Assembly: GCF_030161095.1 (NCBI RefSeq)
Contig: NZ_BSPP01000010.1
Coordinates: 310,001-374,000, forward strand
DNA length: 64,000 nt
DNA from: Cypionkella aquatica
GTDB lineage: Bacteria; Pseudomonadota; Alphaproteobacteria; Rhodobacterales; Rhodobacteraceae
Direction: 5' to 3'
In this document: one piece after another, positions 38,310-42,392 of the stretch
How positions within the stretch are numbered: the stretch's first letter is position 1
How the letters are laid out: every line of letters begins with the position of its first letter
Position numbers and translations under genes: made by a program
The notes under the pieces: model-generated
The model's database searches: none
Told to the model about the DNA's origin: nothing
The model's input: the letters and a program-made list of their open reading frames with translations, nothing else

Positions 38310-38999
38310 TCAGTCAACGATCTCGTAGGTGACGGTGACAGCCGCGCTCATTCCGATCTGGCCCGAAGCGACCGGCACCGCAGATGCCGCCTTGGCCTCG
38401 TCGCGGAACATCGGCATTGGCGCGCCGTAACCTGCGTTTTCAGAGATCGCTTCGACCTTGCCAAGCTTTACCCCAGCGGCCGCGGCGAACAATTCAGCGC
38501 GGGTTTTGGCATCGGCCACGGCGGCTTTGCGGGCCTCGTCCTGCGCCGGGCGGGGGCTTGCAAGATCAAAGGTGATGCCGTTCAGCGTATTCGCGCCATC
38601 GGTGATGCTGGCATCAAGCACGCTGCCCAAGCTTTCCAACGCCCGCACCCGCACGCTGAGCATGTTGGACGCCACATAGCCCGCAATCTTCGGCGTCGAG
38701 CCGGATTCGTAGCCGACCCAGTTCGGATTCAGCGACAGGTTCGAGGTTTGCAGATCACGGTCCTCGATCCCCGCCGATTTCAGCCGATCAATCACCGCTT
38801 GCAGGGCTTTCGAGTTGGCGGCCATCGCCTCGGCAGCTGACGCGCCATCGGTGGTGACCCCGAGCGAGATCGTCGCCATGTCGGGGGTGACCTGAACGGT
38901 GGCTTCCCCCGTCACGGTAATCACATTATCGGCAAGTGCCGGGGCCGCAATTGGCAGGACAAGGGCGGCGGACAGCAACAGGGTCTTCAGAACACGCAT
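38310..38999 (-). CDS. SIMPL-domain (DUF541) secreted protein
   Basis: Periplasmic protein of 229 aa with a signal peptide (MRVLKTLLLSAALVLPIAAPALA, residues 1-23). The mature part begins ITVTGEATVQVTPDMATISL, the hallmark of SIMPL/YggE-like proteins. YggE is linked to oxidative stress in E. coli; the molecular role is not settled. The ATG at 38999 follows GGAGG by seven bases. It is divergent from the large bitopic protein gene. Confidence 0.9.
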   Translation of the reverse strand: MRVLKTLLLSAALVLPIAAPALADNVITVTGEATVQVTPDMATISLGVTTDGASAAEAMAANSKALQAVIDRLKSAGIEDRDLQTSNLSLNPNWVGYESGSTPKIAGYVASNMLSVRVRALESLGSVLDASITDGANTLNGITFDLASPRPAQDEARKAAVADAKTRAELFAAAAGVKLGKVEAISENAGYGAPMPMFRDEAKAASAVPVASGQIGMSAAVTVTYEIVD

Positions 39000-39170
39000 G
39001 GGAACCTCCAAAAGTTATGCGTCTTAGGTGTAGTGCTATGACGCGCGCCGCAAGCCAATCCTTGGACCCGGCTTGCGTTTTTCTTTCCTTCGGCAAAAAG
39101 CTGCTATAGGAAGGGCCCAACCTTGCAGCGCGCGTTTCCTGCGGTGCCCTCCATGTGCTAGACCCGTGAT

Positions 39171-42100
39171 ATGAAACCAGCTTTTGCACTCGATTTCCGC
39201 GATGACACGATCAGTTTGCTGCACCGCTCGGGAAGTGGTTGGCAACTTGTTGGTGCCGTACCACTTGACACACCCGATCTGACCGAGGCTTTGGGCTATT
39301 TGCGCGCCACAGCGCTTGGCCTATCGCCGCGCGGGATGGCCACCAAACTGGTGATCCCGAACGAACAGATCCTGTATCTGACTTTGCATGCGCCCGGCCC
39401 CGATCCAGACAGCCGCGCCGCGCAGGTGGCCGCAGCGCTTGAGGGGCGCACCCCCTATGATGTTGCCGATCTGGCCTATGATGTCAGTGGTGATGGCGCG
39501 GATGTGCAGGTTGCGGTGATCGCCAAGGAAACTTTGGCCGAGGCCGAGGCCTTTGCGACCGAGCACCGGCTGAACCCGATTGCCTTCGTCGCGGCGCCTG
39601 ATGGGGGCGTCTTTGCAGGCGAGCCGTGGTTTGGGCTGTCGTCGCTTGCGCCCTCGCTGATGGCGGCGGGGGGCGAGGTTGAACGCGATGCGGCACCTGT
39701 GATGATGGTGGCGCGCGGGTTTGCGGCAACTGCGCCGGTTGAGACCGAAGCTGTGGTTGAACCAGAAGCTGTGGCAGAGGTTACTGCGGACGCCGAGGCT
39801 TTGGTTGAGTCTGAATATGTCGCAGAACCTGAGTTTGTCGCAGAAGCCGAATTTAGAGCAGAACCTGTCGCGGAAATCGTGGCAGAGCCTGTGCCTGAAG
39901 TCACCGCTCAGCCCGAGTTGGCGCTGGAACCTGCACCAAAGCCAACACCTGCTTCCGCGCCAGAGCCGTTTCCCGAGGCATACCCGGACGCAGAGGCCAG
40001 CCAATATGTGCCTTTTGAAAGCAAAGCCTCTGAAGCCGAAGCCGTTGGGCGTGAAGCCCAGTCGCGCGATCTGCAACCGCGGCCGCTGCGCGCGTCGGAG
40101 CCGGTTTTTATCGAGCCGCGCCGACCATCGGCTGATGGCGGCGACGATGATCGCACGCTGATTGCGGCTTTGGCCGATACGCTGTCTGCGCCCATCGCGC
40201 AGCCTGCGCCGCCGCCACCCGTGAAACCGGCACCACCGAAGCCGCTGCCCGAGGTTGAAGAAGCCCCGATGGCGCTGGATGTCGCCGATGACGAGGCCGA
40301 CAATGACACCGCGCAAGACGCAGAGCCGCAAGGGGCCGATGTCATCCGTGCGGCGCTTTCGGCGCAATCTGCATCGGGGCAACCCAATTCTGGGCAAACT
40401 GTCTCGCCGCAGTCGGCGCGGGTGATTGATCCGGCAATTGACGATGATTTGCCGCCAATGCATCCGGCATCGGCCTTGGGCGCGTTTTCAAGCCGCCGTC
40501 AGGCCAATGACCCTCTGCCCAGCAAGGCTCCGGCTTTGGGTGGGGCGAAGGATGGCGGGCAGCGTTCGGTTGGGGCAAAGCCGCTGGCCGGGCCACCGCC
40601 GTCAGCACAGCGTCCGGGCATCCAGAAGCCTGAGGCCCTTGCCAAGGCAACAAAGCCCGCAAAGTCCGGGCTGCGCGGCTTGTCGTCTTTCGTGTCTTCT
40701 GCAAGCACAGCGACAGCGTCAGGGACAGCCAAGCCGCGCAGCAAGGTTGCGATCCCCTCCGCCTTGCCGCCGCTGAAATCCACCAATGCGGCGTCGGCCA
40801 GTGCCACGTCACAAGCCACCACCCCACCACGCCCTGCTGCGGCGCGCGCGCCCGGCGGGTTTGCCGCGCGCGAGCCGGTGCGGGGCAAGCCGCGCTATCT
40901 GGGGCTGGTGCTGACGGTTGTGCTGCTGTTCTTGTTGGCGATGGTTGCGGCATGGTCGTCTTACACGATGGGCGCTTGGAATGCCTCAAGCGAGCAGCCA
41001 GTGCAGGTTGGCGATGCGGGGGGCGATGGCTCTGACGGGGTAAGCAGTGACGCGGGGACCGACTTCCCGGATGCCAATGACGAGATGTTGGCCGATATGC
41101 AGGACCCGGCTGCGCTGTCGGATACCGCTTCGGTCAGTGATCCCGGGGCAGCGCCTGTCGAAGAGGTGGTCAATCCGCCTGCCGAATTCGAGGATGCTGC
41201 ACAGGCTGGCGATCAGCAAGCGGGCGATCTGGCCGCTGGGACGGCCACTGAACCTGCGCCGACCTTGCAGGTTGCCGCCGAAACTCCTGCCCCGGTCAAT
41301 CCGACAGCGGGCACCGATGATGAGATCTTTCTGGCCTCGATGGATGCAGCGCCTGCTGCTTCTGACCCGTTGACGCTGAACCAGCCGCTGCCGCAGGGCG
41401 ACAGCCTGCCCTCTGCACAGCCCGCTCCTCCGCCGTTTGGCACGGTGTATCAGTTTGAACCGAATGGCACGATTGTGCCAACGCCCGAGGGTGTGATCAC
41501 GCCGGAAGGTGTGGTTTTGCGCGCAGGCAAGCCCGAGGTGGTGCCGGGTGTGCGCACCGCTGCCGTTATCGCTGCCGCCGCTGCGTTGAAACCAGCACCT
41601 GCGGATGCTGCGGCTTTGGTCGATCCTGCCGCCGTTGCCGCAGCGGTCGCAGACGCACAAGCCGAAGCGCCGGTCTATGCCGACCCCGCGCTTGCCGGCA
41701 AAAAACCAAAGCTTCGCCCTGCCGGATTGGCCGCCCCAACTGCCGATCAAGGCGCGCTGGCCCCTGCGGTTGACACCCGGCTGGCTGGTCTGCGCCCCGC
41801 GGCACGCCCCGGCGCTATTCTCGCCGCTGGGCGTCAGGCGCAACAAGCCTCTGCTGCGGCCTCTTTGACCGCACAGGCCGAGGCGATCACCCAAGCGTCG
41901 GCGGTGAGCGGTGGCTCGAAGCTTGCCATCGCGATCAGCCGCAAACCTGCCGCCCGCCCGCGCGATCTAAGCCGTGCGGTCGAGGCCGCCGTCGCAGCCG
42001 TCGCCCGGGAGCCGCAACCAGAGCCCGAAGCCGAGGTTGCCGCCGTGGCACCGTCGCGCAAAGCCCAGCCAGAGCCGGAAAAGAACGGAGCCGCAGAGGC

Positions 42101-42392
42101 TGACAATGAGCCCGAGATCGCCTCTGCCGCGCCGAAGATCCCAACCAAGGCGACAGTGGCAAAGCAGGCGACCTTCAAGAACGCGATCAACCTGTCAAAG
42201 CTTAACCTGATCGGCGTTTATGGCACTCAGTCCAAACGCTATGCTTTGGTGCGCACCGCCAATGGCCGCTACAAAAAAGTGCGGGTTGGCGATACGATTG
42301 ACGGCGGTGGCCGCGTCGCAGCCATCACCGCGACCGAGGTGCGCTATCAAAAGGGTGGCCGTCTGGTCGCCTTGGCGATGCCGAAAAGCTGA
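39171..42392 (+). CDS. Large bitopic protein: PilM/GspL-like N-domain, TM helix, PilP/GspC-like C-domain
   Basis: Protein of 1,073 aa. Residues 1-165 (FALDFRDDTISLLHR, then KLVIPNEQILYLTLH and AALEGRTPYDVADLAYDV) resemble the actin-like cytoplasmic domain of GspL/PilM. Residues 165-570 are Glu/Pro/Ala-rich linker. One helix at about 576-600 (YLGLVLTVVLLFLLAMVAAW) crosses the membrane. After a second long Ala/Pro linker, residues 1005-1073 (LNLIGVYGTQSKRYALVRT, GRYKKVRVGDTIDGGGRVAA) match the small beta domain of PilP/GspC. The layout suggests a one-chain alignment complex linking cytoplasm to outer membrane. No other secretion or pilus gene is in the window. Assignment is by pattern only. Confidence 0.7.
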   Translation: MKPAFALDFRDDTISLLHRSGSGWQLVGAVPLDTPDLTEALGYLRATALGLSPRGMATKLVIPNEQILYLTLHAPGPDPDSRAAQVAAALEGRTPYDVADLAYDVSGDGADVQVAVIAKETLAEAEAFATEHRLNPIAFVAAPDGGVFAGEPWFGLSSLAPSLMAAGGEVERDAAPVMMVARGFAATAPVETEAVVEPEAVAEVTADAEALVESEYVAEPEFVAEAEFRAEPVAEIVAEPVPEVTAQPELALEPAPKPTPASAPEPFPEAYPDAEASQYVPFESKASEAEAVGREAQSRDLQPRPLRASEPVFIEPRRPSADGGDDDRTLIAALADTLSAPIAQPAPPPPVKPAPPKPLPEVEEAPMALDVADDEADNDTAQDAEPQGADVIRAALSAQSASGQPNSGQTVSPQSARVIDPAIDDDLPPMHPASALGAFSSRRQANDPLPSKAPALGGAKDGGQRSVGAKPLAGPPPSAQRPGIQKPEALAKATKPAKSGLRGLSSFVSSASTATASGTAKPRSKVAIPSALPPLKSTNAASASATSQATTPPRPAAARAPGGFAAREPVRGKPRYLGLVLTVVLLFLLAMVAAWSSYTMGAWNASSEQPVQVGDAGGDGSDGVSSDAGTDFPDANDEMLADMQDPAALSDTASVSDPGAAPVEEVVNPPAEFEDAAQAGDQQAGDLAAGTATEPAPTLQVAAETPAPVNPTAGTDDEIFLASMDAAPAASDPLTLNQPLPQGDSLPSAQPAPPPFGTVYQFEPNGTIVPTPEGVITPEGVVLRAGKPEVVPGVRTAAVIAAAAALKPAPADAAALVDPAAVAAAVADAQAEAPVYADPALAGKKPKLRPAGLAAPTADQGALAPAVDTRLAGLRPAARPGAILAAGRQAQQASAAASLTAQAEAITQASAVSGGSKLAIAISRKPAARPRDLSRAVEAAVAAVAREPQPEPEAEVAAVAPSRKAQPEPEKNGAAEADNEPEIASAAPKIPTKATVAKQATFKNAINLSKLNLIGVYGTQSKRYALVRTANGRYKKVRVGDTIDGGGRVAAITATEVRYQKGGRLVALAMPKS

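Follow-up and report, generated by a model that had tools for sequence, protein, structure and literature searches.

PilM of the type IVa pilus is a separate soluble protein of about 350 aa whose nucleotide cleft is complete; PilP is a lipoprotein; GspC of the type II secretion system (T2SS) begins with its own short cytoplasmic tail and transmembrane helix (TM). Such alignment-complex proteins are usually thought of as parts of secretion or pilus machines. The traffic ATPase of the known machines is brought in by GspL, probably also by PilM, and PilP and the homology-region (HR) domain of GspC bind the N0 domain of the secretin (PMC4471445, PMC3169554), with Val118 and Val129 of Vibrio cholerae GspC at the GspC-GspD interface (PMC3169554). 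Here we describe a protein of Cypionkella aquatica in which both ends of such a complex are fused in one chain that is kept throughout the family Rhodobacteraceae, including members with neither secretin nor ATPase. A search of the open-access literature (subscription journals lay outside its scope) on GspC/GspL, PilP, PilM or SIMPL in Rhodobacter, Roseobacter or Rhodobacterales returned nothing relevant and no description of such a fusion; the domains are already known, and their combination and machine-independence have not been described as far as we have found.

The gene lies in a window of 64,000 nucleotides (contig NZ_BSPP01000010.1, positions 310,001 to 374,000, forward strand), where an intact open reading frame with an ATG start at 39171-42392 (+) encodes 1073 aa; its parts are listed in chain order in Table 1. 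The original prediction had described one membrane helix and two long Pro/Ala/Glu-rich linkers, and this layout holds. Hydropathy gives a single peak, preceded by six K/R in 25 residues and followed by none in 40, and an N-in/C-out topology is therefore predicted; of the 49 homologues whose TM peak is clear, 48 have the same positive-inside bias. N-domain, TM and C-domain share a single ORF in 58 homologues, including those 49, among which total length ranges from 466 to 1515 aa, the cytoplasmic linker from 8 to 526 aa and the periplasmic linker from 191 to 790 aa.

Table 1. Features of the fusion gene and of its divergent neighbour, in window coordinates
Feature	Residues	Position	Strand	Evidence
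N-terminal cytoplasmic domain, predicted GspL/PilM subdomain I	1-165	39171..39665	+	AF2 model, fold matches, profile, dN/dS
Cytoplasmic Pro/Ala/Glu low-complexity linker	166-573	39666..40889	+	Composition, variable length, low identity
Single transmembrane helix, predicted N-in/C-out	~574-600	40890..40970	+	Hydropathy peak, flanking charges
Periplasmic low-complexity linker	601-985	40971..42125	+	Position between TM and HR domain
[KR]PxxRP motif 1, KPKLRP	845	41703..41720	+	Motif scan
[KR]PxxRP motif 2, RPAARP	875	41793..41810	+	Motif scan
[KR]PxxRP motif 3, KPAARP	925	41943..41960	+	Motif scan
C-terminal periplasmic PilP/GspC HR beta-domain (by profile and model)	~986-1073	42126..42389	+	PF04351, model, dN/dS
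SIMPL (DUF541) exported protein, candidate partner only		38310..39011	-	PF04402 E 1.6e-58; divergent upstream in most loci

Purifying selection on both terminal domains is strong. In comparison with a near Cypionkella relative, identity is 84% in the N-domain, 98% in the C-domain and 53-72% in the linkers (53% in the cytoplasmic one). The dN/dS ratios against near relatives are about 0.10-0.15 (N-domain) and mostly near 0.02 (C-domain), the latter reaching 0.12 against the most distant C-domain compared. A chance open frame or composition artefact is ruled out by these ratios and by the same architecture in the 58 homologues; long ORFs on the opposite strand over the linkers were taken as high-GC shadow frames.

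The C-terminal end had been called PilP/GspC-like, which database profiles and structure prediction confirm. Pfam PilP (PF04351) matches the isolated domain directly at 26.4 bits, above its cut-off of 25.6, T2SSC (PF11356, E 4e-5) and TIGR03021 pilP_fam (E 4e-8) fall just below theirs, and PilP is matched by 37 of 41 homologues. The model of the domain (pLDDT 72) matches the folds of PilP (3jc8, 2lc4) and GspC-HR (3oss_C), the latter with a TM-score of 0.83 over the target and an rmsd of 1.3. By profile and predicted fold the C-domain is thus an HR beta-domain of PilP and GspC. It resembles known examples (2lc4, 2y4x, 3oss, 7oio) in fold, in profile and in the disordered arm ahead of the small beta-domain, but it ends a protein of more than 1000 aa and, in some carrier species, is present where no secretin is found.

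The N-terminal end had been called PilM/GspL-like from its motifs. That reading went beyond what a plain search of the single sequence supports and stands with a family profile and a structure model. Searches of the single N-domain against Pfam and NCBIfam returned nothing relevant, and a family alignment was needed; a sequence-only search of the PDB gave a best GspL match at E 0.09 with unrelated matches scoring alike, and was not used alone. An AF2 model of the N-domain, built from a shallow alignment of six sequences (pLDDT 63.5), found GspL cytoplasmic domains or PilM in all of its best eleven PDB fold matches (top match 4pht, E 5e-7), with FtsA lower; neither end of the protein was predicted to adopt a fold other than the one proposed. 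The actin-like cytoplasmic fold of GspL/PilM is thereby found by both fold search and profile, at modest model confidence, but the complete two-domain fold (about 240 aa in GspL, 350 aa in PilM) is not. The conserved region ends near residue 165, where the low-complexity linker begins, and predicted secondary structure stops about where actin-like subdomain I stops. As modelled, the N-domain would be only about the first half of GspL/PilM, and since the second half is missing a nucleotide cleft in the fusion protein is unlikely.

Compared with GspL (4pht, 1yf5), the fusion shares the fold and profile similarity of the N-domain, its cytoplasmic location and the single TM after it, but keeps only about the first 165 residues. 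The PilN-like ferredoxin domain that follows the TM of GspL (PF05137) is absent from the fusion and present in the T2SS GspL controls, and long linkers and the C-terminal HR domain stand in its place. With PilM (5eox, 5eq6) the N-domain shares its fold, but here it is a half-domain joined to a membrane protein. A similar domain was also seen in another setting in one Rhodobacteraceae genome, where a gene at L163:2900-4552 (+), not far from a resolvase-like ORF, encodes a MerR-type DNA-binding domain (PF13411, E 8e-17) followed by a GspL/PilM-like domain (N-profile E 9e-26).

We searched 289 class-level genomes with a profile built from 62 Rhodobacteraceae N-domains. Outside the family it matched at nine places, spread over eight genomes, the best with E 9e-10. 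Eight of these places are open frames of about 360-390 aa that all carry a PilN domain, and most have a PilM/T2SSL match, some of these below threshold; they are GspL-type proteins. The ninth (L091), outside the eight frames scanned, is a 544-aa frame within a T2SS-type gene cluster. The C-domain profile likewise matches GspC/PilP-type genes in other alphaproteobacteria. In six fully read non-Rhodobacteraceae loci GspL (N-profile) is followed by a gene of GspM size, which in the one case tested matches T2SSM_b, and then by a small HR-type gene (C-profile), with a GspD-sized ORF next wherever the stretch reaches that far. GspL and HR-type genes therefore lie two apart in the order L-M-C-D, and the fusion carries both ends of the L-M-C block in that order. 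This layout suggests the collapse of an L-(M)-C block: the fusion would derive from a GspL-GspM-GspC stretch of an operon in the family's ancestor, and flexible linker would have taken the place of GspM and of GspL's PilN-like part.

The periplasmic linker contains a repeated motif, [KR]PxxRP, that the original prediction missed. Its preferred context is roughly aLaxLRPxxRPxxL. In the linkers of 39 homologues it was observed 87 times against 2.6 expected from shuffles (maximum 6), about a 33-fold excess, and at least one copy is present in 55 of 59 proteins. The motif belongs to the periplasmic side, with 110 copies in 17,981 periplasmic linker residues vs 6 in 12,856 cytoplasmic ones. A survey of 464 kb (about 11%) of the window's own genome found only one other plausible protein with at least two copies, an Extensin-like_C protein (PF06904) at L131:8446-9501 (-), with three copies in an N-terminal linker that reads as exported. 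One might guess that this protein and the fusion linker share a wall-related ligand.

The fusion is near-universal and usually single-copy in the sampled Rhodobacteraceae. Its N-domain was found by query in 138 of 150 family genomes, to which the profile adds four (142/150), and an order-level draw, in which all genomes belonged to Rhodobacteraceae, was positive in 121 of 121 near-complete genomes. No long fusion was seen outside the family among the 289 alphaproteobacterial genomes of the class-level sample, so that the protein is, as first proposed, typical of this lineage. With the C-domain as query 99 of 101 family genomes match, some through a free miniprotein or at contig ends. For a homologue carried by a Paroceanicella plasmid the annotation says no more than "hypothetical protein". 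Two distant homologues have their N- and C-domains on separate neighbouring ORFs (L038, 2908-3576 and 3540-4391; L063, 5857-6663 and 5366-5833), which may represent a split gene or a sequencing frameshift.

A second, short C-domain ORF is present in roughly a quarter to a third of the 101 family genomes. Two that were read, L157:2341-2601 (+) and L158:2338-2592 (+), encode miniproteins of about 85-95 aa that consist of a free HR domain and show no sign of a signal peptide or TM; both sit between purF-type and SDR/surE-type genes. HR-like domains in Rhodobacteraceae may therefore also act in the cytoplasm, where a PilP-like domain would be unexpected.

An old block of conserved synteny comprises MetY, the divergent SIMPL gene, the fusion, a KefB-type antiporter, CarD and FdxA. 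Of the loci with enough flanking sequence, most have SIMPL divergently upstream; several distant loci lack it. As a functional partner of the fusion it was not accepted, the case being one of synteny that MetY and the KefB-type gene share equally, and it is kept as a lead.

The gene had been proposed to stand alone, with no other secretion genes nearby, and for the two diagnostic genes this is correct: the window's genome has a single secretin and a single full-length T2SSE ATPase, which lie no more than about 4 kb apart on contig 7, and the window is on contig 10. The ORFs round them look like TadZ, CpaD and TadB, a Tad-type naming taken from reading the sequences and not from family searches. 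Across the family, secretin is present in 134 of 150 genomes and absent from 16, an absence that sequence-only methods could overstate if a secretin were very divergent. Among genomes of at least 95% completeness, eleven carry the fusion gene with no secretin (G067, G071, G103 and eight that also lack any T2SSE match: G030, G045, G056, G095, G118, G126, G137 and G149). Seven of those eight were verified to encode both domains; in the eighth, G030, the gene is cut off by a contig end. The genome of G045 is a single contig. In the other direction, G105, also of Rhodobacteraceae, carries the fusion in addition to a T2SS cluster equipped with GspL-type, HR/T2SSB-type and GspD genes of its own. The fusion thus neither depends on secretin/ATPase machines nor replaces them, in support of the proposed stand-alone status.

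These genomes also bear on two machine-bound explanations. A fused GspL-GspC serving a degenerate type II system, as a functioning or relict component, would account for the homology of both ends to genes two apart in T2SS operons. We regard it as very improbable and rejected the fusion as a T2SS component, because the T2SS-bearing G105 has separate L- and C-type genes besides the fusion and other carriers have neither secretin nor ATPase; nor is strong constraint expected of a relict. Nor is the fusion encoded together with a T2SS secretin, traffic ATPase and pseudopilins, its conserved neighbours being SIMPL and the KefB-type antiporter, and a type IVa pilus (PilMNOPQ) with PilQ secretin and PilB ATPase is likewise not found in the window's genome, whose sole secretin and full-length ATPase lie in the Tad-type locus. 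That locus, together with secretin in most family genomes, is what commends an accessory role in the Tad/Flp pilus, in which the HR domain would dock the Tad secretin and the GspL-like domain the TadA ATPase, making an alignment complex for the Tad machine. As a general role this is unlikely: the fusion does not co-occur strictly with the Tad/Flp secretin and ATPase, given the secretin-less carriers, eight of them also with no T2SSE and one of these on a single contig, and in the window's genome it is not beside the tad genes. The fusion could still moonlight with Tad where Tad is present.

A different proposal makes the protein an organiser of cell division or polarity, with the actin-like N-domain as a truncated FtsA-type adaptor and the periplasmic part binding the wall with no outer-membrane partner. 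FtsA is among the lower fold matches, near-universal conservation suits a housekeeping role, the MerR-linked domain described above indicates that a similar N-domain can act as a module, and [KR]PxxRP recurs in the extensin-like protein. GspL and PilM score far above FtsA, however, subdomain II with its share of the nucleotide cleft is absent, and no division gene was among the conserved neighbours read, and we think this proposal has little chance of being right.

We consider it fairly probable that the fusion is a stand-alone trans-envelope tether of Rhodobacteraceae, exapted from the alignment platform of the T2SS or type IV pilus. The word tether is drawn from the architecture, and it is from the same layout that we infer the scaffold function first suggested. 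The binding ends persist in several species that lack their usual partners, so they presumably bind something else. The GspL-like domain would dock a cytoplasmic partner, the linker with its [KR]PxxRP repeats would cross the periplasm and attach to the wall, or to a protein associated with it, and the HR domain would dock a periplasmic or outer-membrane partner other than, or besides, a secretin. The protein would in this way keep an outer-envelope factor at one site with a factor of the cytoplasm or inner membrane. Against a tether speak the modest confidence of the N-domain model (pLDDT 63.5), the several-fold variation in linker length, the homologues with almost no cytoplasmic linker and the short free HR-domain ORFs, whose domain may work in the cytoplasm.

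A further proposal, to which we give slightly less than an even chance, is that the fusion represents an envelope-spanning system of a kind not yet described and shared by the whole family. It would be a T2SS alignment platform that has collapsed and operates with no pilin, motor or secretin, and its repeated periplasmic [KR]PxxRP motifs would hold a cytoplasmic factor to the wall or outer membrane. Envelope-spanning proteins of the TonB/TolA type also consist of a TM, a stalk and a small C-terminal domain. The fusion is like them in its single TM, long low-complexity periplasmic stalk and small C-terminal domain, but its C-terminal domain is of another family and its cytoplasmic half is large; the likeness is one of layout, and homology is not claimed.

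Both ends of the alignment complex are thus in one chain and are kept in species without the machines, and a single gene is therefore enough to test what alignment-complex proteins can do alone. Near-universal yet only partly named by plain family searches, or annotated as hypothetical, the gene is likely to encode a housekeeping envelope factor of the Rhodobacteraceae, which are abundant bacteria.
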